This document shows positions 35,793 to 47,194 of a stretch of DNA of 64,000 nucleotides, piece after piece. The translations under genes were made by a program, and so were the position numbers. The notes under the pieces were generated by a model. The model was not told where the DNA came from. It saw nothing but the letters and a program-made list of their open reading frames with translations, and did not search any database. The first letter of the stretch is position 1; each line of letters opens with the position of its first letter. Source of the DNA: Gemmatimonadota bacterium (GTDB taxonomy: Bacteria > Gemmatimonadota > Gemmatimonadetes > Longimicrobiales > Gaopeijiaceae); contig JAPPNN010000004.1 in the NCBI GenBank assembly GCA_028873815.1, positions 144,829 through 208,828 of the forward strand. Direction: 5' to 3'.

Positions 35793-35859
35793 GCGGCGGC
35801 ACCAGGCGCGCGCGTTGGCCGGTGCTTTGCCACGTGCGCCGTGCGGCTACCTTTTCCCC

Positions 35860-36723
35860 ATGAGAGTCGCCCTCTTCGTCACCTGCCTCGCCGACCACTA
35901 CTTCGCTGAGGCCGCGGCCGACACCGTGCGCCTGCTCCGCCATCTGGGATGCGAAGTCGCCTTTCCTGCCGATCAAACCTGCTGCGGACAGCCCGCCTAC
36001 AACGCGGGACGGCTCGGCGAAGCGCGGCGGATGGCGGAGCACACGCTCGGGGTGTTCGCGGGTGCGGTGGGCGAACCGGGTGATCCGGCCGCCTCGGATG
36101 CCCCGGCCGCCCCGGATGGCCCGGCAGCTACAGATGCCGTCGTCCTCCCCAGCGGATCCTGCGCCACGATGGTCAAGAAGTTCTACCCGCGGCTTCTGGC
36201 TGGCGGCAGGGACACGGCTCCCCCCACCGCGCTCGCGGACCGCACCTTCGACCTGGCCGAGTTCATCGTCCACCGGCTGGGCGTTACCGAGCTGGGCAGC
36301 GGGCTCGCGGGCCGGCGTGTGGCCGTCCATCAGGGGTGCCATGCGCTGCGCGAATTGCGGCTGGAGACCGAGCCGGCGGTGCTCCTCGAGGGGGCCGGTG
36401 CCGAAGTCGTGCCTTGGGAGGCCCAGGAGGAGTGCTGCGGATTCGGCGGCCTGTTCTCCGTGAAAATGACGGCCGTGTCCGCAGCCATGGCCGACCGCAA
36501 GCTCGACACCCTGCCCGAGGTCGACTGGGTGGTTTCCGGCGATGGCGGCTGCGTGCTGCACCTCGACGGGCGAAACCGGGCGCGGGGCACAGGCGTCGAG
36601 TTCGTGCACCTGGCGACCGCGCTGTGGCGGGGGGTGGCGGGGGATGCCCGCGCGGCCGAAGGGAGCGACGTGGCCGCAGTCCGCGATGCCGCCGAGGCGG
36701 CCCGCCCGCTCGAGGCCCGCTGA
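35860..36723 (+). CDS. lutA: L-lactate oxidation complex, (Fe-S)-binding subunit
   Basis: The ATG at 35860 starts the conserved 'MRVALFVTCLADHYFAEAAA'; the track start is 15 codons upstream. 287 aa with two CCG-type cysteine-rich domains, 'PADQTCCGQPAYNAG' and 'WEAQEECCGFGGLFSVKM', plus 'VVLPSGSCATMVKKFYP' and 'VAVHQGCHALREL'. LutA is the hydrophilic heterodisulfide-reductase-like subunit that with LutB and LutC converts L-lactate to pyruvate in the cytoplasm. An insert of Ala/Pro/Asp repeats around residue 75-90 is unusual but likely just a linker. The next gene starts 1 base after the stop. Confidence 0.9.
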   Translation: MRVALFVTCLADHYFAEAAADTVRLLRHLGCEVAFPADQTCCGQPAYNAGRLGEARRMAEHTLGVFAGAVGEPGDPAASDAPAAPDGPAATDAVVLPSGSCATMVKKFYPRLLAGGRDTAPPTALADRTFDLAEFIVHRLGVTELGSGLAGRRVAVHQGCHALRELRLETEPAVLLEGAGAEVVPWEAQEECCGFGGLFSVKMTAVSAAMADRKLDTLPEVDWVVSGDGGCVLHLDGRNRARGTGVEFVHLATALWRGVAGDARAAEGSDVAAVRDAAEAARPLEAR

Positions 36724-36724
36724 C

Positions 36725-38116
36725 ATGCACACGCGAATCAGGGACTACCCGTCGCGTTCAAGCGAGATCATCCGCGACGACCCAGGTGTCCGCGATGCGG
36801 TCACGGGCGCCACTATCGCCTTCGACCAGAAGCGGCTGCAGGGTTATGCCGAGGTCGATGCCGACGCGTGGCGGCGCTGGGCCGAGGGCGTGAAGAGCCA
36901 CACGCTGACGCACCTGGACCGCTACCTCGCCGAAGCGGAGACACAGCTTGAGGCCAACGGCGCCGAGGTGCACTGGGCGGCGGACGCGGCCGAGGCCCGC
37001 GAGATCGTGATGTCGCTGGCGGCGAGGCACTCGGTGAAGAGCGTGGTCAAGGGCAAGAGCATGGTCGCCGAGGAGATCGACCTGAATCCGGCGCTGGAGG
37101 CCGCGGGGATCGAGGTCTACGAGACCGATCTGGGCGAATACATCCTGCAGCTCCTCGAGGAGGAGCCCAGTCACATCCTGGGGCCAGCCATCCACAAGAG
37201 CCTGCAGCAGGTGCAGGAACTGTTCGCCGACCGCCTGGGCTCGGAGCCGGGGGGCGATCCCGACACGCTCGCGCGGGCCGCTCGCCGCGTGCTGCGCGAC
37301 GCCTTCATCCAGGCGGACATGGGGATTACGGGCGGCAATTTCCTCGTCGCGGAGACGGGCACGGTGGCCCTGATAGAAAACGAGGGGAACATCCGCCTCA
37401 CGACTTCGCTGCCGCGCGTGCACGTCGCGGTCGTCGGCATCGAGAAGCTGCTGCCCCGCATGGCCGACCTCTCCGGCTTCCTCCAGCTCACCGCGCGCGC
37501 GGCGACCGGCCAGCCGATCGGCTGCTTCGTGTCGCTCGTCCAGGGGCCGGCATCCCACCCCGACGATGACGGGCCGGAGGCGGTGCACGTCGTCCTCGTC
37601 GACAACGGCCGCACGGATGTCCTGGCCCACGAGCACGCGTGGGAGGCACTTCGGTGCCTGCGCTGCGGTGCGTGCCTGAACGCGTGTCCGGTATACCGGC
37701 AGACCGGTGGGCACGCGTACGGCTACGTCTATTCGGGGCCGATCGGCTCGGTGCTCGACCCGGGGCTGCTGGGGTTGCACGAAGCCATGCCGCTGCCGTT
37801 TGCGTCATCGCTCTGCGGCGCCTGCGAGGACGCGTGTCCGGTGCGCATTCCCATCCCCGAGATGCTGCTCGAGTGGCGGCGCGAAGCGCAGGAGGAGGGG
37901 CTTACCCCGTGGAAGGAACGCGCAGCGCTGAAGGGACTCGCGAGTGTGGCGACGCGGCCGGGGCTGTACAGGCTCGCGGGCAGGATCGGGTCGCGGCTGG
38001 GGGCGACGGGCGTGGCGCGCGGGCTGCCCATGCTCGGCGAATGGGCCGCCGATCGCGCGTTGCCGCAGCCGAGCCGGCGGACGTTCCGCGAGCTCTGGCG
38101 CAAGGGGATCGAGTGA
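36725..38116 (+). CDS. lutB: L-lactate oxidation complex, iron-sulfur subunit
   Basis: 463 aa from ATG at 36725. It has an LUD domain ('ARHSVKSVVKGKSMVAEEID', 'ETDLGEYILQLLEEEPSHIL', 'ADMGITGGNFLVAETGTVAL') and a C-terminal pair of 4Fe-4S clusters, 'CLRCGACLNACPVYRQTGGH' and 'CGACEDACPVRIPIPEML', followed by a DUF3390-like tail. This is the classic LutB/YkgF layout, the electron-carrying subunit of the lactate oxidation complex. Its stop overlaps the lutC start by 4 bp (GTGA). No lactate permease lies next to it; the FMN hydroxyacid dehydrogenase at 48 kb may serve the same substrate class in another compartment. Confidence 0.94.
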   Translation: MHTRIRDYPSRSSEIIRDDPGVRDAVTGATIAFDQKRLQGYAEVDADAWRRWAEGVKSHTLTHLDRYLAEAETQLEANGAEVHWAADAAEAREIVMSLAARHSVKSVVKGKSMVAEEIDLNPALEAAGIEVYETDLGEYILQLLEEEPSHILGPAIHKSLQQVQELFADRLGSEPGGDPDTLARAARRVLRDAFIQADMGITGGNFLVAETGTVALIENEGNIRLTTSLPRVHVAVVGIEKLLPRMADLSGFLQLTARAATGQPIGCFVSLVQGPASHPDDDGPEAVHVVLVDNGRTDVLAHEHAWEALRCLRCGACLNACPVYRQTGGHAYGYVYSGPIGSVLDPGLLGLHEAMPLPFASSLCGACEDACPVRIPIPEMLLEWRREAQEEGLTPWKERAALKGLASVATRPGLYRLAGRIGSRLGATGVARGLPMLGEWAADRALPQPSRRTFRELWRKGIE

Positions 38117-38697
38117 GCGCGGCCTCGCGGGAGCGGATCATGGCCCGGGTCGCGCGGGCGACGGCAAGCCGTCCCGGGTTGCCGCACCCGGGTGCGCTCG
38201 CAACGCCGCGCTCGGACAATGCGGTGGATGCGTTTGTGAAGCGTTTCACAGGCAGCGGTGGCGAGGTGGCCAGGGCCGATCCGGAGCTCCCGCCGGGCGA
38301 GTGGCTCGCCCGCTTCCTGCGGGGACTCGAACCCCAGGTGACGGGCGTCGCCTTGGCGCCGGACGTGCCGCCCGAACTGAGGCCGCGGTTGCAGGAAGCG
38401 GCCGGCGCCCACGCGAGCGCGGGCATTTCACTGGCCTGGGGGGCCGCGGCGGACACGGGTAGCCTGGTCCTGCCGTCGACGGGAACACGGGCCGTGCAGT
38501 TGCTGCCGCCGGTTCATGTGGTGTGGTTGCCGGCGGGACGGGTGTTTGCTCGACTGGACGATGCGTTGCTCGAGCTCGGCGCGGGATTGCCTGCGGCCGT
38601 GGGACTGCACTCCGGGCCCAGCAAGTCGGCGGACATCGGCCGCACGGTCGTGACCGGGGTGCACGGGCCGGGGCGGTGCATCGCGGTGCTCAGCTGA
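38113..38697 (+). CDS. lutC: L-lactate oxidation complex, LUD-domain subunit
   Basis: GTG at 38113 is coupled to lutB. 194 aa, near the usual LutC length. The LUD domain is seen in 'ALAPDVPPELRPRLQEAAGA', 'AGISLAWGAAADTGSLVLPS', 'LLPPVHVVWLPAGRVFARLD' and the C-terminal 'HSGPSKSADIGRTVVTGVHG', where the Ser-Ala-Asp-Ile segment is the family signature. It completes the lutABC operon. The track ORF starting at 37639 is longer only because the frame is open through lutB. Confidence 0.92.
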   Translation: MSAASRERIMARVARATASRPGLPHPGALATPRSDNAVDAFVKRFTGSGGEVARADPELPPGEWLARFLRGLEPQVTGVALAPDVPPELRPRLQEAAGAHASAGISLAWGAAADTGSLVLPSTGTRAVQLLPPVHVVWLPAGRVFARLDDALLELGAGLPAAVGLHSGPSKSADIGRTVVTGVHGPGRCIAVLS

Positions 38698-38733: not shown

Positions 38734-38764
38734 GGCTAATTCAAGATGCGACTTTGAATCAGCC
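38734..38764. terminator. Hairpin between convergent lutC and acyl-CoA ligase genes
   Basis: GGCT-A-ATTCAA (38734-38744) pairs with TTGAAT-C-AGCC (38754-38764): ten base pairs with a single A/C mismatch and a 9-base loop. It overlaps the stop codon of the minus-strand ligase gene and follows lutC by 37 bp, so it probably ends both transcripts. Confidence 0.6.
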
Positions 38765-40336
38765 GCGATCTCCCGCCCCAGCCACCCCCCGCAACACCTC
38801 CAGAATCTCCGCCCGGTCCACCTTCCCCACACCCGTGAGCGGCATCTCGTCCGCCGTCACGATGTGCCTCGGGTGCGCATACGCCGGGCCCTCTTCCAGG
38901 GTGTACCGCTTCAGCGCCCCCGCCGTCAGCGCCGACCCCGACGCCAGCTTCACCATCGCCGCCGGCACCGCCCCCTTCAGCGCGTGCGGGACCGGCACGA
39001 CCGCCGCGTCCAGCACGTCCGGATGCGACAGGAGCAGGTCCTCGACCTCCTTGGGGTAGATGTTCTCGCCGCCCGAGTTGAACATGTCGTCGGTGCGGCC
39101 GCGGAAGTGGAAGAACCCGTCTTCGTCACGCTCGAAGAGGTCGCCGGTCGCCAGCCAGCCGTCCCGGATCCGGGCGGCGTTGACCTCGGGCAGGTTGTGG
39201 TATCCGGGCGTGACCCCGGGGTTGCGGACCCACAGCTCGCCTTGGCGAGGGTCCTCGACTCCGTCCCGTACGAGCATGATCTCGCCCTCGGGCCAGGCAG
39301 CACCACAGCTTCCCCTCGGCACGGGCCTTCCGTCGAGCGGGGGGCCGAGCATGACGGGGCCGCCCTCGGTGAGGCCGTAGCTCTCGCCGACTTCGACGCC
39401 GAACGCCTGCTCCACCGCGTCCATCAACTCCGGCTGCACCGGGGCTGACCCCAGCGTGACCCTCCTGAGCGCCGAAAAGTCCAGCCTCTGAATGAGGTTC
39501 ATATGGTCCAGGGCAATGGCGAAAACGGCCGGGACCGCGCCCACCTGCGTGCATCTGTATTCGCTCAGCGCCTGCAGAAAGGCCACCGGCTCGAACCCGG
39601 CCTGGATCACCACCGATCCCGCCGCTTGCAGGAGCGGCTTGACCGCGCCGGCCATCGCGTTCTTGTGGTAGAGGGGAACGGCTGCCAGCGCTCGGTCGCC
39701 GGGGTCGGCTGGCCAGTACTTCCGCAGGCAGCGCACCCACCAGAGCTGTCCCTCGTGGTCGAGCACGACGCCCTTGGGCTTGCCCGTCGACCCCGAGGTA
39801 TAGGGCTGGAACGCGGGGTGGTTTGCGCCGAGGCGGGGCGGCTCGAAGTCGGCTGACGATCCCGCCAGCGCACCCTCGTAGTCCACCCAGCCGGGGCTTG
39901 CCCGTCCGCGACCCGCGTGGTCCCCGCCGACCTCCCACCTCTTCTCGATCCCCAGCCGCTCGATCACCTGCGCCGAGCGTGCGGTGACTGCGGTTTCGAC
40001 GAACGCGGCCCGGCAGCCGGCGTCGGCAACGACGTGGGCGAGAGATTCGGCCGACAGCTTGAAGTTGAGGGGTACCGGGACGGCGCCGCAGCGCATCGCG
40101 CCGAACATGATCTCGACGAATTCGAAGCGGTTGCCGACGCTCAGCGCGACCCGCTCGCCCATTGCAACGCCCGCGTCCGTGAGCAGGTTGGCGACGCGGT
40201 CCATGCGCTCGTCGAGTTCGTGGTAGGTGACCTCGCGGGGCGTCGGGCGCGACAGGTCGATCAGCGCGGTGCGATCGGGGAATTCGGCGCGTGCTTCGCT
40301 GAGCCAGTATCCGAGGTTGTTCGTGCGGTTCTTCAT
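38759..40336 (-). CDS. AMP-dependent acyl-CoA synthetase/ligase
   Basis: The ATG at 40336 overlaps the stop of the small membrane-protein gene (ATGA). 525 aa of the ANL superfamily, with the AMP-binding P-loop 'FQPYTSGSTGKPKGVVLDHE', the A5 region 'GESYGLTEGGPVM', 'DGWLATGDLFERDEDGFFHF' and the hinge 'GRTDDMFNSGGENIYPKEVE', ending in the catalytic lysine region 'DEMPLTGVGKVDRAEI'. It joins a carboxylic acid to CoA via an acyl-adenylate. Being the last gene of an operon with a thioesterase, an oxidoreductase and a transporter, it probably activates an imported aromatic, branched or fatty acid. The exact acid cannot be read from sequence. Confidence 0.9.
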   Translation of the reverse strand: MKNRTNNLGYWLSEARAEFPDRTALIDLSRPTPREVTYHELDERMDRVANLLTDAGVAMGERVALSVGNRFEFVEIMFGAMRCGAVPVPLNFKLSAESLAHVVADAGCRAAFVETAVTARSAQVIERLGIEKRWEVGGDHAGRGRASPGWVDYEGALAGSSADFEPPRLGANHPAFQPYTSGSTGKPKGVVLDHEGQLWWVRCLRKYWPADPGDRALAAVPLYHKNAMAGAVKPLLQAAGSVVIQAGFEPVAFLQALSEYRCTQVGAVPAVFAIALDHMNLIQRLDFSALRRVTLGSAPVQPELMDAVEQAFGVEVGESYGLTEGGPVMLGPPLDGRPVPRGSCGAAWPEGEIMLVRDGVEDPRQGELWVRNPGVTPGYHNLPEVNAARIRDGWLATGDLFERDEDGFFHFRGRTDDMFNSGGENIYPKEVEDLLLSHPDVLDAAVVPVPHALKGAVPAAMVKLASGSALTAGALKRYTLEEGPAYAHPRHIVTADEMPLTGVGKVDRAEILEVLRGVAGAGDRG

Positions 40337-40590
40337 TCTCCGGGGTCGCTGGACCCGGCGGGCAGCGCCAGCGCCGAGATGCAGACGGCCGTGGCCACGC
40401 CGCCGATGACGATCCAGATCCAGCCGGCGCCCGTGCGCATGACCGACGCGACGCCCCAGAGAGCCATTGCATTGGCCGCCAGGTTGACAATCAGGCCCCA
40501 GACGCGCCCCGACCATGGCCCGATGCGCCGGTCGAGGAAGCGCTCGAGCGCGGTCCCGCCGTCTCCGCGGCCTCCCGCCCCGGGCGTCAC
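40333..40590 (-). CDS. Small membrane protein in the NRAMP-like/acyl-CoA ligase operon
   Basis: The ORF track hides this gene in a long shadow frame (40333..41712). Starting at GTG 40590, which overlaps the stop of the transporter gene (GTGA), it encodes 85 aa ending at TGA 40333, which in turn overlaps the ligase ATG. The sequence 'TALERFLDRRIGPWSGRVWG' is followed by two hydrophobic segments ('LIVNLAANAMALWGVASVM' and 'WIWIVIGGVATAVCISALAL'). The double overlap and constant reading suggest it is translated. It may be an accessory subunit of the transporter. I recognise no family. Confidence 0.7.
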   Translation of the reverse strand: MTPGAGGRGDGGTALERFLDRRIGPWSGRVWGLIVNLAANAMALWGVASVMRTGAGWIWIVIGGVATAVCISALALPAGSSDPGE

Positions 40591-41936
40591 CACAACCCCA
40601 GCCGGTTGAACACGTACGTGATCGCGATCGCGTTGAGCAGCGTCACCTGCAACAGGATCCCGAGATTCCACAGGTACGACTTGCTGCGGTCGGCGCCCAG
40701 CACCTTGCGGTCGTTGAGCAGCAGGTACATCGACCAGCCGACGACGTTGTTCGCGAGCGACAGGAATGCCGCGATGAAGATGACCAGCCAGACCGGGTTG
40801 GCGTTCCACGCGGCGAGGAACGCGACCTGCGGCAGGAGCGCGCTGATCTTCCAGCGCCACGACGCGGTGTCGGGCTCCCACCCGAAGGCCTCGTGGATGG
40901 CCATCGCGCCGGCCAGGCTCATGCCCACCGTGGTCGTGATGGGGACCGCGAGGAACCCGACGTAGAAGAGGATTTGCGACCAGGTGGGACCGAGCAATGG
41001 CATGAGCGCCGCCGCCAGCTCGGGTGCCGACTGCGGGGTGATCCCCTGCGGGAAGAGCGTCGCGGCGAAAACGCCGATCACCAGGAAGTTGACGACGACG
41101 AACGGGATGAAGAGTCCGGCGAACAGGTCGAAGCGCGCGAGCGACTCGTGGTTCCGGCCCCACCCCCGCCCCAGGCCCGCGTAGTGGAAGAAGACCCAGT
41201 CCATCACCCCGACGGCCGCCGCGGACGAAGCGATGAAGAGATCCAGCCCCTGCCCGCCGCCCGGCAGCCAGGGCACGAACGCGCCGCGGGCCGCCGCGCC
41301 CCAGTCGACGCCGACGACCACCAGGACGGCCCCGAACGCGATGATCATGAGCGCGATCGCGGCCTTCATCACCGTCTCGACCAGGCGCGTGCCGGTGCCG
41401 CCGCGGCGTCCGTAGCTGAGGATCAGCCAGCTGGTCACCCCCACGTAGAGGACCCAGTTGTACTCGGCCGGGAAGGAGAAGCCCGCGAACGGCGCGAGGG
41501 ACTCGATCAGGTGGGTGCCGAGGGCGACCTGGCCGAAGTTGAAGATCACGGCGACCGCCGCGGTTCCGACCAGTGCGGTGAGCAGCGAGCCGATCAGCCA
41601 GGAATGGCGCCGATTCTGGACCTGGATGACCCGGAAGCCGCCCTTGCAGGTGAAGCGGGCCATCGCGGCCATCATGAAGAGGCCGAGGCCGCACGCGAGC
41701 CAGATCAGCCACAGAGTGCGGTAGCCGAAGGTGGCGCCCGAGAGCATGGACGAGGTGAGGGTGCCGGCTCCGAGCGTGAGTGCGGCCCCCATGAACCCGG
41801 GGCCGGCCAGGCGGGCGTAGCCACCGATCCGCTTGTGGGCCGGGGCCTTGGCGAGAGCAGCCAGCCGGCCGGCTTCGCCGTCCAGCACTTCCGCTGGAAT
41901 GCGCTGGGCGATGGGATAGCTGGATGGGTCGTTCAC
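40587..41936 (-). CDS. NRAMP-family-like transporter lacking the DPGN metal-binding motif
   Basis: GTG at 41936 is coupled to the upstream oxidoreductase stop (GTGA). 449 aa and about eleven transmembrane helices with the LeuT/NRAMP layout: 'GPGFMGAALTLGAGTLTSSM' in TM1, 'VQNRRHSWLIGSLLTALVG', 'VPITTTVGMSLAGAMAIHEA' and 'SLANNVVGWSMYLLLNDRKV'. In true NRAMP metal transporters TM1 carries DPGN and TM6 MPH; here TM1 reads LGAGT, so manganese or iron transport is doubtful. Operon partners (thioesterase, MDR oxidoreductase, acyl-CoA ligase) point to an organic acid as the substrate instead. This is inference from context. Confidence 0.8.
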   Translation of the reverse strand: MNDPSSYPIAQRIPAEVLDGEAGRLAALAKAPAHKRIGGYARLAGPGFMGAALTLGAGTLTSSMLSGATFGYRTLWLIWLACGLGLFMMAAMARFTCKGGFRVIQVQNRRHSWLIGSLLTALVGTAAVAVIFNFGQVALGTHLIESLAPFAGFSFPAEYNWVLYVGVTSWLILSYGRRGGTGTRLVETVMKAAIALMIIAFGAVLVVVGVDWGAAARGAFVPWLPGGGQGLDLFIASSAAAVGVMDWVFFHYAGLGRGWGRNHESLARFDLFAGLFIPFVVVNFLVIGVFAATLFPQGITPQSAPELAAALMPLLGPTWSQILFYVGFLAVPITTTVGMSLAGAMAIHEAFGWEPDTASWRWKISALLPQVAFLAAWNANPVWLVIFIAAFLSLANNVVGWSMYLLLNDRKVLGADRSKSYLWNLGILLQVTLLNAIAITYVFNRLGLW

Positions 41937-42943
41937 AGGGTCAGTATCGACTTGCCGAACACCTGCCGCCTCATGAGTTCGCCCATCGCCGTGCGGACAT
42001 CCTCGACCGGTCTGACAGCGTGGATGACCGGCTCGAGCTCTCCGTCGGCGACCATCGCCAGCAGGCGCGCCAGCCCCTCGCGGCTCCATCCGTCCGACCC
42101 GATGATCGTCTGCTCGAAGCTCCAGATGTAGCGGATGTCGGTGGACGGGTCGTAGCCGGCCGTGGCCCCGCAGGTGACCATCCGCCCCTGGAACCGCAGC
42201 ACCTTGAGGCTGGCCGCCCAGGTGGCGCCGCCGATGTAGTTGACCACGACGTCCACGCCGCCGGACTCCGGGTCATGGTAGCGGGGCCGGCCGGCGATTT
42301 CGCGCACGAGCCGGACCAACTCATTGGAACGCGATGGCAGGACGTGGTCGGCGCCGATGGCCTGCAGGCGGTCCAGCTTGCCCGGCGAGCCTCCGGTCGC
42401 GATCACCCGGGCGCCGATGCGCTTGCAGAGCTGGACGCTACAGGTGCCGACGCCGCCTGTGGCGCCGAGGATCAGCACGGTTTCGCCGGCTTGTACGCGT
42501 GCGCGGTCCTCGACCATGCGAAGCGCGGTGCCGTACGCTACTGGAAGGGCGGCGGCATGCTCGAACGAGACGCCGTCGGGGATCGGCACAAGGTTGTCCA
42601 GGGGGACCGCGAGGTACTCCGCCGCCGCCCCGGGAGCCTTCTCGCCGAGCATGCCGCGGTCGTGGATGATGGGGTCGATCATTGCGCGGTCCCCGACCTG
42701 CCAACCCGCCGCGTCCGTCCCGGGACCGAACGCCGCCACCTCGCCGCCGGCGTCGCCGCATGGGGTCATGGGGAAGGGGATGCGCAGTCCCGTGGTCCCG
42801 GCCAGCATCATGGGATCGAAGCCGTTGAGAGCGCAGGCGCGAATGCGAATGAGCGCCTCGCCGGGGCCGGGCTCGGGCGTGGGGACGTCGGCCAGGTAGA
42901 GCTGGTCGACGTTGCCGTGTCGGTCGTAGAGGACGGCTTTCAC
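41933..42943 (-). CDS. MDR-family zinc-type alcohol dehydrogenase/quinone oxidoreductase
   Basis: 336 aa from a GTG at 42943. It has the GroES-like N-terminal domain ('VPTPEPGPGEALIRIRACAL', 'GDAGGEVAAFGPGTDAAGWQ') and the Rossmann domain with 'VLILGATGGVGTCSVQLCKR' and 'VDVVVNYIGGATWAAS'. The catalytic-zinc cysteine/His set of classical alcohol dehydrogenases is not evident, so a quinone-oxidoreductase or enoyl-reductase type reaction with NADPH fits better. It follows the thioesterase gene by 24 bp and overlaps the NRAMP-like transporter by 4 bp. Confidence 0.88.
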   Translation of the reverse strand: MKAVLYDRHGNVDQLYLADVPTPEPGPGEALIRIRACALNGFDPMMLAGTTGLRIPFPMTPCGDAGGEVAAFGPGTDAAGWQVGDRAMIDPIIHDRGMLGEKAPGAAAEYLAVPLDNLVPIPDGVSFEHAAALPVAYGTALRMVEDRARVQAGETVLILGATGGVGTCSVQLCKRIGARVIATGGSPGKLDRLQAIGADHVLPSRSNELVRLVREIAGRPRYHDPESGGVDVVVNYIGGATWAASLKVLRFQGRMVTCGATAGYDPSTDIRYIWSFEQTIIGSDGWSREGLARLLAMVADGELEPVIHAVRPVEDVRTAMGELMRRQVFGKSILTL

Positions 42944-42967
42944 GGTCGCGTGCAGTCCACGGTGGTC

Positions 42968-43390
42968 CTAGCCCACCATCGAGGAGTAGGTGCCGCGCCC
43001 CACCGCGCAGAGGCGCCCCTGGTCGTCGTGCACGTCCACGTCGGAGACCGAGATGGTGCGGCCCCCTCGCCGCAGCCGGGCCGTCGCCAGCAGGTACGGA
43101 CCGGTGCAGGGGCGCAGGTAGTCGACCCGCAACGAGATGGTGGGGACCCCGCCGCCCGCGCGCGCCGCCACGACCATGTCGCCGGCGATGTCGATGAGCG
43201 ACGCGATGGGGCCGCCGTGATAGATGGTGCCGTCTCCCCGTGTGAGGTCGTCCCGCTTGGCCATTCTGAGGACGATGGTCTCGCCGTCCTCGCTCATGTC
43301 GTGGAGAGTGATTCCAAGTGCGACGATGGCTTCGGCACCTGCCAGGACGGACTCGATCAGCCTCCAGGAATCGGTGTTTTTCGGTGGCAT
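42968..43390 (-). CDS. PaaI-like hotdog-fold thioesterase
   Basis: The ATG at 43390 is used; the track start at 43768 lies inside the divergent peptidase gene. 140 aa, the normal size of a PaaI/YbgC-type hotdog domain. The signature is 'DGTIYHGGPIASLIDIAGDM' (HGG loop and the Asp/Ser catalytic region) followed by 'ISLRVDYLRPCTGPYLLATA' and 'DQGRLCAVGRGTYS'. Such enzymes release CoA from stalled or unwanted acyl-CoAs in aromatic-acid catabolism. It is the first gene of the five-gene operon and divergent from an S9 peptidase gene. Confidence 0.87.
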   Translation of the reverse strand: MPPKNTDSWRLIESVLAGAEAIVALGITLHDMSEDGETIVLRMAKRDDLTRGDGTIYHGGPIASLIDIAGDMVVAARAGGGVPTISLRVDYLRPCTGPYLLATARLRRGGRTISVSDVDVHDDQGRLCAVGRGTYSSMVG

Positions 43391-43520
43391 GGCGTATGGA
43401 GTTAGTGTGGGGCCGAGTGGCGGGCAAGTGGAGGCACGGTGCCGGGGCAGGCTTGACCCGTGCGGACGTGCGCCCCCACTTGACTGGGAGTTCCCCTCAG
43501 TTCCGGAAGGAGCCGCTCCG

Positions 43521-45674
43521 ATGCGCATCGCCGCCCGCGTTTCGTTTCCGCCCGCCGTCCCGGCGCTCTCCCCCCGCGTACCGTTTCTGGCTGCCGCCCG
43601 CCCGGCCGCAGCCGCGTTATCGCTTGTCACGGGCACCCTGCTTGCGGTCACCGCAATTTCCACCCTTTCGTCCCCCTCGCTCCAGGCCCAGGACGCCGAC
43701 CGGCTCACCGTCGACCGGTACCTCGACTGGGAGCGCGTGAGCGATCCACGGATCTCGCCGGACGGCAATCGCGTCGTCTACACGAAGAGCTGGGTGAACA
43801 AGCAGGAGGATCGGTGGGACTCCGGCCTGCACATGATGAACACCGACGGTTCGCGAAAACGCTTTCTGGTGGAAGGCTCCGGGGCCCGCTGGTCGCCGGA
43901 CGGCACCCGCATTCTCTTCACCGCCGCGGACGACGACGGCGGGAGCCAGATCTTCGTGCGCTGGATGGACGACGAAGGCAACGTCACGCAGGTGACCCGG
44001 GTCCAGGGAACGCCCATGAACGCCATGTGGTCGCCCGACGGCAACATGATCTCCTTCACCATGGACACGCCCGGCGAACTGCCGAGCGACTGGTCCATCG
44101 ATCTCCCGGCCGCACCCGCGGGCGCCAACTGGACCGAGACCCCGCGCATCGTCGAGAACATGCACTTCCGCCGCGACTTCGTCGGGTTCACGGATCCGGC
44201 CTACCACCACCTCTTCGTCGTCCCGTCCACGGGGGGCACGGCCCGCCAGCTGACGCACGGCAAGTGGCACGTCGGAGCCCGGTTCATCGCCGTCTACTGG
44301 GGCGCCGGCTACGACTGGACGCCCGACGGCAGCACCATCGTCTTCGACGGACTGATGGAGGAGGACTGGGACAAGCGCTACTTCGAGTCGGCGATCAACG
44401 CAGTGGACGTCGCCACGGGTGAAATGCGCGAAATCACCACGACGCGCGGACTCTGGACCAGCCCGTCGATCTCTCCCGACGGCAGCACCATCGCTTTCAC
44501 CGGGTATGAATGGTCGCCGCAGACCTATCACGTCGGCGAGATCCACACGATCGGAATCGACGGCAGCGGCATGCGCATGCTCACGCCCGATCTGGACCGG
44601 GACATCGGGGGCATCATATGGGACGATGACGGCACCCGCTTCTACTTCTCCGTCCAGGACCGGGGCTCGGCCAACGTCTATTCCGCCACGACCGGTGGCG
44701 ACCTGCGGCAGCTGACCGACGACGTCCACATGCTGTCGCTCACGTCGGCGGCAGGCGGGACCGCGGTCGGCGTCCGCTCGGCTCCGCAGGCTCCGGGCGA
44801 CGTGGTCCGGTTCGGCCTGAATGCCGGCGCGGACGTCGAGCAGCTTACGCGGGTGAACGAGGATGTGTTGGAGGGCGTCGTACTCGGAGACCTCGAAGAA
44901 ATCTGGTACGAATCCACCGAAGGGGCGCAGGTACAGGGATGGGTCATCAAGCCGCCCGGCTTCGACCCCACGCGCCGCTACCCCCTCATCATGGAAATCC
45001 ACGGCGGCCCCCACGGCATGTACAACGTGGGCTTCAACTGGATGTTCCAGAACTTCGCCGCCAACGACTTCGTGGTCCTCTACACGAATCCGCGCGGCTC
45101 AACCGGCTATGGCACCGACTTCGGCAACGCAATAGATGACCAGTACCCCGGCCCGCGCGATCTCGCGGACCTGCTCAACGGCGTCGACGAGGTCGTGAGC
45201 CGGGGCTACATCGATACCGACCGGATGTACGTGGGCGGCTGTTCCGGGGGAGGCGCGCTTTCCAGCTGGGTGATCGGCCACGACAACCGTTTCGCGGGCG
45301 CGGCCGTACGCTGTCCGGTCATCAACTGGATGTCGTTCGCCGGCACCGCCGACGTGGCCATGTGGGGCTACCGCCGCTTCCGCGAGCTGCCGTGGGAGAA
45401 TCCGGACAAGTGGCTGCGCCACTCGTCGCTCATGTACGCGGGCAACGTCACCACGCCCACGCTGCTGCTGACCGGGGAACTCGACCTCCGCACGCCGATG
45501 TCGCAGACGGAGGAGTACTACCAGGCGCTCAAGATGGTCGGCGTTCCCACCGCCATCATCCGCTTCAACAACGAATACCACGGCACCGGGAGCCGCCCGT
45601 CCAACTTCATGCGAACCCAGCTGTACATGCGGAAGTGGTATGACCGGTGGGTGGGCAAGAGGCCGGTGAGCTGA
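43521..45674 (+). CDS. S9 family peptidase (prolyl oligopeptidase type), exported
   Basis: ATG at 43521 with AAGGAG upstream. 717 aa: a signal peptide ('ALSLVTGTLLAVTAISTLSS' to 'LQAQD'), a PD40/TolB-like seven-bladed propeller ('DPRISPDGNRVVYTKSW', 'ARWSPDGTRILFTA', 'MWSPDGNMISFTMD', 'SPSISPDGSTIAFTGY'), and an alpha/beta-hydrolase C-terminal domain. The nucleophile is in 'YVGGCSGGGALSSW' (GxSxGG), the acid in 'TGELDLRTPMS' and the base in 'NNEYHGTGSRP'. These exopeptidases/oligopeptidases cut short peptides in the periplasm. The stop codon overlaps the start of a transporter gene by one base (TGATG), suggesting that products are imported by it. It is paralogous to the gene cut at the left edge. 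Confidence 0.93.
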   Translation: MRIAARVSFPPAVPALSPRVPFLAAARPAAAALSLVTGTLLAVTAISTLSSPSLQAQDADRLTVDRYLDWERVSDPRISPDGNRVVYTKSWVNKQEDRWDSGLHMMNTDGSRKRFLVEGSGARWSPDGTRILFTAADDDGGSQIFVRWMDDEGNVTQVTRVQGTPMNAMWSPDGNMISFTMDTPGELPSDWSIDLPAAPAGANWTETPRIVENMHFRRDFVGFTDPAYHHLFVVPSTGGTARQLTHGKWHVGARFIAVYWGAGYDWTPDGSTIVFDGLMEEDWDKRYFESAINAVDVATGEMREITTTRGLWTSPSISPDGSTIAFTGYEWSPQTYHVGEIHTIGIDGSGMRMLTPDLDRDIGGIIWDDDGTRFYFSVQDRGSANVYSATTGGDLRQLTDDVHMLSLTSAAGGTAVGVRSAPQAPGDVVRFGLNAGADVEQLTRVNEDVLEGVVLGDLEEIWYESTEGAQVQGWVIKPPGFDPTRRYPLIMEIHGGPHGMYNVGFNWMFQNFAANDFVVLYTNPRGSTGYGTDFGNAIDDQYPGPRDLADLLNGVDEVVSRGYIDTDRMYVGGCSGGGALSSWVIGHDNRFAGAAVRCPVINWMSFAGTADVAMWGYRRFRELPWENPDKWLRHSSLMYAGNVTTPTLLLTGELDLRTPMSQTEEYYQALKMVGVPTAIIRFNNEYHGTGSRPSNFMRTQLYMRKWYDRWVGKRPVS

Positions 45675-47194
45675 TGGGCGCTCCCCACGACGGCGGCGCG
45701 GGCACGCCGGACGCCCCCCCACGCGAGGCACGCTCGGGGCTGAAGCCCTTCGAGAAGGCGGAGCTGCCGGCGCCGCCAAGGCCGAAGGGCCTCTCATGGC
45801 TGGGCGTTGTGGGGCCCGGCGTCATCGTGCTCGGCGCGTCGATCGGCAGCGGCGAATTCCTGCTCGGACCTGCGGCGTTCGTGCAGTACGGGCTGGTGCT
45901 GCTGTGGGTCACGCTGGTCGCCGCGTTCTTCCAGACCGTGTTCAACACCGAATTGATGCGCTGGACGATCGCCACCGGCGAGCCCGTCGTGACGGGATTC
46001 ATGCGCACGAAGCCGTGGTCCCAGTTCTGGGCGTGGGTGTACGCGCTGCTCTACTTCCTGCAGGTGGGCTGGCCCGGCTGGGCGGGTGCGGCCGCGGGCG
46101 CGATCTTCTTCCTCATCTTCCGTGACCTCGCGGGACCTGCGCAGGAGCACATCGTCTACTGGATCGGCGTGGGCACCTTCGGGCTGTGCGTAGGGATCCT
46201 GCTCTTCGGGAAGCGGATCGAACGCACGCTCGAGCTGCTGAACTGGGTGCTGGTGTCCGCGATCATCGGCGGCTTCCTGATCCTCGCGGCCATCTTCGTG
46301 GGGCCGGACACGTGGGTCTCGGCCGCGGCAGGGCTCGTCGGCTACGACACCGGCACCGGCGGCTTCCGCTTCATCCCGGAAGGCGTGGACTGGTTCCTGA
46401 TCGGCGCGTTCGCGGCGTACTCGGGCGCGGGCGGCGTCGTCAACCTGACGCTGTCCAACTGGGCCCGCGACAAGGGATACGGGATGGGGAAGCGCGCCGG
46501 GTACATTCCGGCCGCAGTCGGGGGTGAACGGACGAAGCTCGCGCCGACCGGCTACACCTTCGACACGACCTCGGACGCCATGGCGCGGTGGCGCGGCTGG
46601 TGGCGCATCGTGCGCGCCGACCAGTGGATCGTCTACTTCGTCGGCGCGATGCTCGGGATGATCCTCCCGGCGGTCATCTACGTCACGTTCATCGAGGCCG
46701 GCACCGACATCCGCGGCCTTTCGGTGGCGGCCACGCTGGCCAACGCGATCGCGAGCGAGGAGGGCGCCATATTCGGCGGAATCATCGCGATGATGGCCGT
46801 CTGGGTGCTCTTCAAGACCCAGCTCGACATCCTCGAGGGGATGACCCGCGCGATCACCGACATCCTGTGGACCGGCTCACGCACCGTGCGGCGGTGGCGC
46901 GGCGGCGATGTCCGGGTGGTGTACTACTCGGTCCTGGGGGTGCTGTGCGTGTGGGGAATCATCGCGCTGGGGGTGGCGCAGCCGATCATTCTGCTCCAGC
47001 TCGGTGCCAACATGGCCGGCGTCGTCTTCGTGATCTCGTCGCTGCACCTGCTGTACATCAACACGCGCTTTCTGCCCGAGGAAGTGCGGCCGCCGATGTG
47101 GCGCCGGGTTTCGCTGGTACTGATGTCGGTGTTCTACGGGGCGTTCGTGACGCTTTGGCTGCGCGGTGTGATCGGGGATTGGCTGGGCGGATAA
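45674..47194 (+). CDS. Second NRAMP-related membrane transporter, coupled to the S9 peptidase
   Basis: ATG at 45674 overlaps the peptidase stop. 506 aa with about eleven to twelve transmembrane helices. TM1 reads 'GPGVIVLGASIGSGEFLLGP', which aligns with the NRAMP TM1 but has SIGSGE in place of DPGN. Other segments are 'GAFAAYSGAGGVVNLTLSNW' and 'MMAVWVLFKTQLDILEGMTR'. Its relation to the transporter at 40.6 kb is distant. It belongs to the APC/LeuT-like superfamily; because it is translationally coupled to a peptidase, amino acids or small peptides are a reasonable guess for the substrate, rather than divalent metals. Specificity is unproven. Confidence 0.78.
   Translation: MGAPHDGGAGTPDAPPREARSGLKPFEKAELPAPPRPKGLSWLGVVGPGVIVLGASIGSGEFLLGPAAFVQYGLVLLWVTLVAAFFQTVFNTELMRWTIATGEPVVTGFMRTKPWSQFWAWVYALLYFLQVGWPGWAGAAAGAIFFLIFRDLAGPAQEHIVYWIGVGTFGLCVGILLFGKRIERTLELLNWVLVSAIIGGFLILAAIFVGPDTWVSAAAGLVGYDTGTGGFRFIPEGVDWFLIGAFAAYSGAGGVVNLTLSNWARDKGYGMGKRAGYIPAAVGGERTKLAPTGYTFDTTSDAMARWRGWWRIVRADQWIVYFVGAMLGMILPAVIYVTFIEAGTDIRGLSVAATLANAIASEEGAIFGGIIAMMAVWVLFKTQLDILEGMTRAITDILWTGSRTVRRWRGGDVRVVYYSVLGVLCVWGIIALGVAQPIILLQLGANMAGVVFVISSLHLLYINTRFLPEEVRPPMWRRVSLVLMSVFYGAFVTLWLRGVIGDWLGG

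Follow-up and report, generated by a model that had tools for sequence, protein, structure and literature searches.

What does a membrane protein with an NRAMP-type fold carry when it lacks the metal motif of its family and is encoded among enzymes of coenzyme A (CoA) chemistry? The question is raised by five genes read in one run on the minus strand (43390–38759) of a 64,000-nucleotide stretch of DNA from a Gemmatimonadota bacterium of the family Gaopeijiaceae (contig JAPPNN010000004.1, positions 144,829 to 208,828; “the window” below): in order, a hotdog-fold thioesterase, a medium-chain dehydrogenase/reductase (MDR), an NRAMP-related transporter, a tiny two-helix membrane protein and an acyl-CoA ligase. 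All five genes lie where a preliminary description had placed them, and its family assignments hold up in searches of Pfam and NCBIfam. We believe that the cassette may be a self-contained uptake-and-activation unit for a specific carboxylic acid, in which the tiny protein would be a dedicated subunit of the transporter; for this scheme as a whole, which is read from sequence, we put the probability at about 0.5.

A transporter clade without the metal site

The transporter (40587–41936, minus strand; 449 residues, GTG start) matches the Nramp family PF01566 with 119 bits against a cut-off of 29.8, and the closest solved sequence is that of EleNRMT (1e-16 with the single sequence, 1.9e-19 with a profile). 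For an AlphaFold2 (AF2) model built from 13 sequences (mean predicted local distance difference test, pLDDT, 71; predicted TM-score, pTM, 0.78), the top structures found by Foldseek are DraNramp (6d91) and EleNRMT (7qji), followed by other LeuT-fold carriers, and the alignment to DraNramp has a TM-score of 0.70 by query length at 20% identity. The NRAMP-type fold without a DPGN motif that had been claimed for this protein is thus borne out, the aligned register reading GAGT.

This change of motif is a property of the whole clade. In transmembrane segment 1 (TM1) the position of DPGN is taken by TLGAGT (residues 54–59; 41760–41777, minus strand), which does not vary among 13 aligned orthologs; of the 14 clade members aligned, all have TLGAGT or a GAG-T/M variant of TLGAG, none has DPGN, and the position of the metal-coordinating Asp is occupied by Gly in every one. 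In TM6, A-(V/I)-G-V-x-D-W stands at the position of MPH in all clade members, with G243, V244, D246 and W247 invariant in the segment G-V-x-D-W (residues 243–247; 41196–41210, minus strand). Canonical members in our motif comparison read DPGN and MPH, EleNRMT reads DAGG and APW, a sister clade found in Acidobacteriota and Gemmatimonadota has TLG(A/S)G paired with N-M-(T/V), and homologs of another type, from Gemmatimonadota and haloarchaea, have IGPGT in TM1 with VPYN or VGYN; within this sample, members without metal motifs show G-x-G where metal transporters show D-x-G. The conserved TM3 Glu (E134 of DraNramp) does not appear to be retained: in the phmmer alignment to human DMT1, Q136 falls opposite the Gln of QE and V137 opposite the Glu; the MAFFT alignment is gapped there, so that the register is less certain.

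Phylogeny against NRAMP and NRMT proteins, an analysis called for at the outset, yields a distinct clade (IQ-TREE, 100/100), which has the TLG(A/S)G clade as its sister (100/97) and is set apart both from the DPGN proteins and from EleNRMT, which joins another row of the tree (L125, 100/99). Some rows are long branches, among them a PxpT-like distant homolog from L. plantarum (L130) that falls outside the window clade, so the deeper branching order is unsure. Membership in the canonical NRAMPs was rejected for want of DPGN and MPH, and membership in the NRMTs because TM1 reads GAGT instead of DxxG and TM6 lacks TxxA/T; the tree separates the clade from both. EleNRMT (7qia) shares the fold and the absence of DPGN, and differs in retaining the Asp of DxxG and the TxxA motif in its binding site and in transporting Mg2+/Mn2+ (PMC8806188).

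Earlier work already describes Nramp-related proteins that lack the metal motifs as a large group (Cellier, PMC9606685, PMC10606218; Ray et al., PMC12873925). The transporter resembles this orphan PF01566 outgroup in family, in fold, in having <30% identity to canonical NRAMPs (Slc11) and in lacking DPGN and MPH; the accessible parts of these three papers name no substrate for the outgroup beyond those of NRMT. Features of the window clade beyond the outgroup are its invariant TLGAGT/x-D-W signature, its adjacent small protein and its CoA cassette. Many NRAMP-related proteins without a metal site carry the default annotation “divalent metal transporter”.

The alignments support loss of the metal site throughout the clade, and we consider it very likely that the transporter is not a metal importer. 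An NRMT-like importer of Mg2+ or Mn2+ whose site is altered, and whose operon the CoA enzymes merely happen to share, would agree with the PF01566 assignment and with EleNRMT as nearest solved sequence; moreover B. subtilis YcsG, also outside the canonical NRAMPs and disputed between 5-oxoproline and Mn2+, is reported to raise cellular Mn (PMC10448178). Such an importer is nevertheless unlikely, given the uniform Asp-to-Gly replacement, the missing Met-Pro-His of TM6, the joint absence of DPGN and of the NRMT pair DxxG–TxxA (PMC8806188), the separation from EleNRMT in the tree, and recurrent neighbors that are CoA enzymes and not metal genes.

The two-helix companion and the spread of the pair

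One scan of 84,980 species genomes gave 22 related loci at 58–98% identity, from Gemmatimonadota, Acidobacteriota (including Thermoanaerobaculia), Aminicenantes, Parvularculaceae, an alphaproteobacterium and Luminiphilus syltensis; an extra member with 62% identity (G861) comes from another Gemmatimonadota family. The clade is scarce: it occurs in 17 of 298 Gemmatimonadota genomes (two distant sister-type matches left out), in 1 of 396 from Acidobacteriota, in 1 of 369 from the class of Luminiphilus and in 1 of 289 from that of the alphaproteobacterium, the last three samples each containing the seed genome. Because its members are scattered over such distant taxa, the distribution suggests horizontal transfer. 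Plasmid-borne clade members were not found in the scan; the plasmid matches are haloarchaeal proteins, and the two inspected are of another type.

Over this range the transporter keeps one constant neighbor. In 22 of 23 loci, spread over Gemmatimonadota, Acidobacteriota, Aminicenantes and Alphaproteobacteria, a counterpart of the tiny gene (40333–40590, minus strand; 85 residues, GTG start) comes immediately after the transporter gene; in Luminiphilus, the exception, it lies ~2.6 kb upstream of the transporter on the same strand. No Pfam or NCBIfam family matches the protein. Its orthologs are 33–45% identical across phyla in the same genomic place, and the ratio of nonsynonymous to synonymous substitution rates is 0.11–0.43 among Gemmatimonadota copies, which together mark the small open reading frame as a real gene. 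An alignment of 15 orthologs has nine invariant positions, including R29, W31, N36 and N40, within the motif R-x-W-x-L-x-x-N-x-x-x-N, and a weak AF2 model (pLDDT 65) predicts helices at 28–53 and 57–74. A profile search located no copy near the sister-clade loci (flanks of ~1.4 kb, and of several kb for 11 loci) and no second copy in the window.

The best reading of this pattern is that the tiny protein is a clade-specific obligate partner of the transporter, and it is probably a true subunit. The tiny accessory subunit of the preliminary description therefore stands as a conserved companion encoded with the transporter. Small membrane subunits are encoded next to other LeuT-fold carriers, such as MetS of MetPS and YjcH of ActP, and we liken the tiny protein to these; it is set apart by its lack of a Pfam or NCBIfam family, its R-x-W-x-L-x-x-N motif and its NRAMP-related partner. 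We put it forward as a candidate for the small subunit of an NRAMP-type carrier, a kind of subunit for which we found no earlier report; the open-access papers searched on Nramp proteins with organic acids or small subunits contained none of the clade, the partner or the CoA cassette.

The pair is also tightly packed within the operon. As first noted, three junctions overlap by exactly 4 bp, namely MDR/transporter (41933–41936, GTGA), transporter/tiny (40587–40590, GTGA) and tiny/ligase (40333–40336, ATGA), while thioesterase and MDR are separated by a 24-bp gap. At the first two of these junctions the start codon overlaps the preceding stop, as GTGA or ATGA, throughout the window and 15 related Gemmatimonadota loci, most of which also contain an alternative ATG for the tiny gene with a 1-bp overlap. 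Overlaps of 4 bp are the commonest type in bacterial operons. For this reason we take them as a sign of an operon and of translational coupling, and not of a protein complex; the original suggestion that the products are made in step holds for coupling and does not extend to subunits made together.

The CoA cassette and the transported solute

The other three genes belong to well-defined families. The thioesterase (42968–43390, minus strand; 140 residues) is of the 4HBT/PaaI-like type (PF03061, 48 bits; TIGR00369, 67.6 bits, over cut-off), contains an HGG motif and has 3e29 as its nearest solved structure. The MDR (41933–42943, minus strand; 336 residues; PF08240 and PF00107) is quinone/enoyl reductase-like, with a PIG3-type model as best NCBIfam match (168 bits, below cut-off); its identification as AcuI, an acryloyl-CoA reductase, was dropped at a score of 80 against an NCBIfam cut-off of 440, and acrylate was therefore not adopted as the substrate. 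The ligase (38759–40336, minus strand; 525 residues) is a member of the ANL superfamily (PF00501, 259 bits; PF13193) whose nearest solved structure is feruloyl-CoA synthetase (8wev); because many ligases score alike, a hydroxycinnamate substrate stays a mere guess.

The expected conservation of the operon is found. The order thioesterase–MDR–transporter–tiny–ligase is intact in the Gemmatimonadota operon loci despite differing flanks (one, L002, ends at a contig edge), and MDR, thioesterase and ligase recur beside the pair, reordered, in Thermoanaerobaculia, Parvularculaceae and an alphaproteobacterium; in L016, L019 and L020 the three enzyme genes come after the pair, with their order changed. 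Luminiphilus has MDR and ligase ~5 kb from the transporter on the opposite strand. The recurring enzymes are, moreover, related to each other: in the window genome, the best match of the alphaproteobacterial cluster ligase is the operon copy (241 bits, with 110 for the next), as it is for the MDR (292 and 174 bits), and in Luminiphilus the same two proteins match the cluster copies best. The L017 genome has its best ligase and MDR matches at the ends of other contigs, where linkage is not judgeable. None of the three enzymes is seen at those sister-clade loci for which longer flanks were read.

We are almost certain that transporter, tiny protein and enzymes form a conserved functional unit. 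An ordinary operon without a common pathway, in which the tiny protein would be a transporter-specific chaperone of no wider meaning, could be argued from the frequency of short overlaps and mixed operons and from two lineages that carry the pair without the cassette; it is very improbable, since the same three enzyme families are re-associated in another order in other phyla, with the best-match relation of MDR and ligase, and such re-association would hardly arise without a functional link.

The enzymes also bear on what is carried, and the solute is, somewhat more probably than otherwise, an organic acid for which the ligase is the activating enzyme. Many organic solutes have their carriers within the wider LeuT fold. 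According to a 2026 study, C. glutamicum PxpT, of the NRAMP family (TC 2.A.55), is genetically required for growth on 5-oxoproline (PMC13274462). Organic acids are consequently not, as had been proposed, a new substrate class for this fold: an organic acid for an NRAMP-related protein is not new in principle, and the novelty lies in the clade, in the small protein dedicated to it and in the CoA cassette. PxpT, YcsG/MntG of B. subtilis and PxpG of C. difficile resemble the window transporter in being NRAMP-family proteins in operons with enzymes for one organic acid; they are linked to pxpABC, whereas the window transporter adjoins thioesterase, MDR and ligase, and the accessible text mentions no two-helix companion for them. 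Two haloarchaeal plasmids (L116:4578–10203 and L117:3902–8730) have an NRAMP-like gene (TM1 IGPGT) directly followed by hydantoinase/oxoprolinase genes, a linkage which suggests another organic-substrate branch of PF01566.

A possible mode of binding is offered by BasC, an amino-acid carrier of the APC superfamily: the carboxyl group of its substrate is held by the backbone nitrogens of two TM1 residues, Ala20 and Gly21, which adjoin Gly19, and a carbonyl comes from Asp202 in TM6 (PMC6472337). The window clade likewise has Gly-Ala-Gly in the unwound TM1 segment and an Asp in TM6. BasC belongs to another sequence family and the equivalence is one of motif and register, so we regard the likeness as a lead toward carboxylate binding and not as proof of it.

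We infer the following sequence of events. The NRAMP-related protein would import the acid across the inner membrane, the GAG segment of TM1 and the invariant TM6 Asp taking the place of the metal site; the two-helix protein would be its dedicated subunit and serve assembly, stability or gating. The ligase would trap the imported acid as a CoA thioester, which the MDR would reduce, most likely at an alpha,beta double bond, and the thioesterase would recycle CoA or clear dead-end thioesters. Uptake followed by activation is favored because transporter and tiny gene adjoin in 22 of the 23 loci, which span several phyla, while 11 sister-clade loci show no match to the tiny protein nearby; because the five-gene order is kept amid differing flanks and the three enzymes recur reordered elsewhere; because the cross-phylum best matches of ligase and MDR are cluster copies; and because DPGN and MPH are absent throughout the clade, TM1 has the Gly-Ala-Gly string of BasC, and PxpT is required for growth on 5-oxoproline.

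Several observations weigh against this scheme. The likeness to BasC is a short motif in TM1, the least certain part of the model (residues 59–74, pLDDT <50). The single-contig Aminicenantes genome has the pair and no orthologous MDR or ligase, and G861 has the pair with no cassette enzymes nearby; as both keep transporter and tiny protein alone locally, the pair does not always come with the CoA enzymes. No substrate is fixed by the subfamilies of MDR and ligase, and the cluster contains no beta-oxidation genes.

The neighborhoods allow a different solute. Were an amino-acid-like or amide/ester-derived compound freed by a secreted hydrolase and then imported, the substrate of the cassette would be a later product and not the transported molecule itself, and the invariant Asp of TM6 could face an ammonium group. 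In most contexts a hydrolase gene with an N-terminal signal-like or membrane segment does lie beside or near the pair: an S9 peptidase (window, L018), S15 peptidases and amidohydrolases (Luminiphilus), an amidohydrolase (L016, L020), an M28 peptidase (L021), a beta-lactamase-fold hydrolase (L019) or an alpha/beta hydrolase (L118). These families are, however, heterogeneous and common in the taxa concerned, the pattern is read without statistical control, and Palauibacter shows no hydrolase next to the operon, so we hold this version to be unlikely, if worth keeping in mind.

Nor can direction be read from sequence, and the thioesterase, which belongs to the cassette in Gemmatimonadota, L016, L018, L019 and L020, might free an acid made by the cassette for expulsion by the NRAMP-like protein and its partner. 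Export is improbable: the characterized NRAMP-family members are importers, PxpT supports uptake, and the marine clusters, which also hold Glyoxalase_3 proteins, amidohydrolases, AraC-type regulators and S15 peptidases, point to uptake with their TonB receptors and secreted hydrolases.

Import of an acid for activation by the ligase remains our preferred account. A more specific form of it, a two-component transporter type in which an NRAMP-related carrier would hold a carboxylate at a GAG/Asp site, depend on an obligate two-helix subunit unlike described families and feed a CoA-ligase/reductase pathway spread by gene transfer, is conceivable at somewhat less than even odds. With its constant small partner and recurrent acid-handling enzymes, the clade makes a concrete case for organic-acid carriers in PF01566 beyond 5-oxoproline, and Luminiphilus syltensis, a cultured host, makes that case testable.

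Flanking genes and related loci

In the genus of the window the operon is flanked by an S9 peptidase gene, a second NRAMP-like gene and usually LutABC. The second NRAMP-like protein (45647–47194, plus strand; NCBIfam NF037982, 190.8 bits) has no PF01566 match and reads IGSGEF in TM1, without DPGN; its gene overlaps the end of the S9 peptidase gene (43224–45674), a pair that is conserved in the genus. By sequence, neither this protein nor the PxpT-like protein of L. plantarum has a match among solved structures. On the other side, genes for LutA/LutB/LutC-like lactate oxidation proteins (35815–38697, plus strand) run convergent with the operon. On another contig of the same genome (C72, ~71574–72281; L127), pxpB, pxpC and pxpA lie beside a beta-lactamase-fold hydrolase, with no NRAMP-like gene next to them in the 3.7 kb read; in L. 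plantarum the PxpT-like gene follows pxpA.

Further observations come from related loci. In Palauibacter (L010:1–6558, L012:292–6561) the operon is, by eye, directly downstream of genes resembling an Mrp-type multi-subunit Na+/H+ antiporter, and in Aminicenantes (L095:8067–9476) the gene directly after the tiny one encodes a fusion of ATC_hydrolase and nitroreductase (PF14196 and PF00881). Several copies of the sister clade (L082–L091, L119, L120) adjoin, again by eye, twin-arginine-type secreted, Gfo/Idh/MocA oxidoreductase-like proteins.

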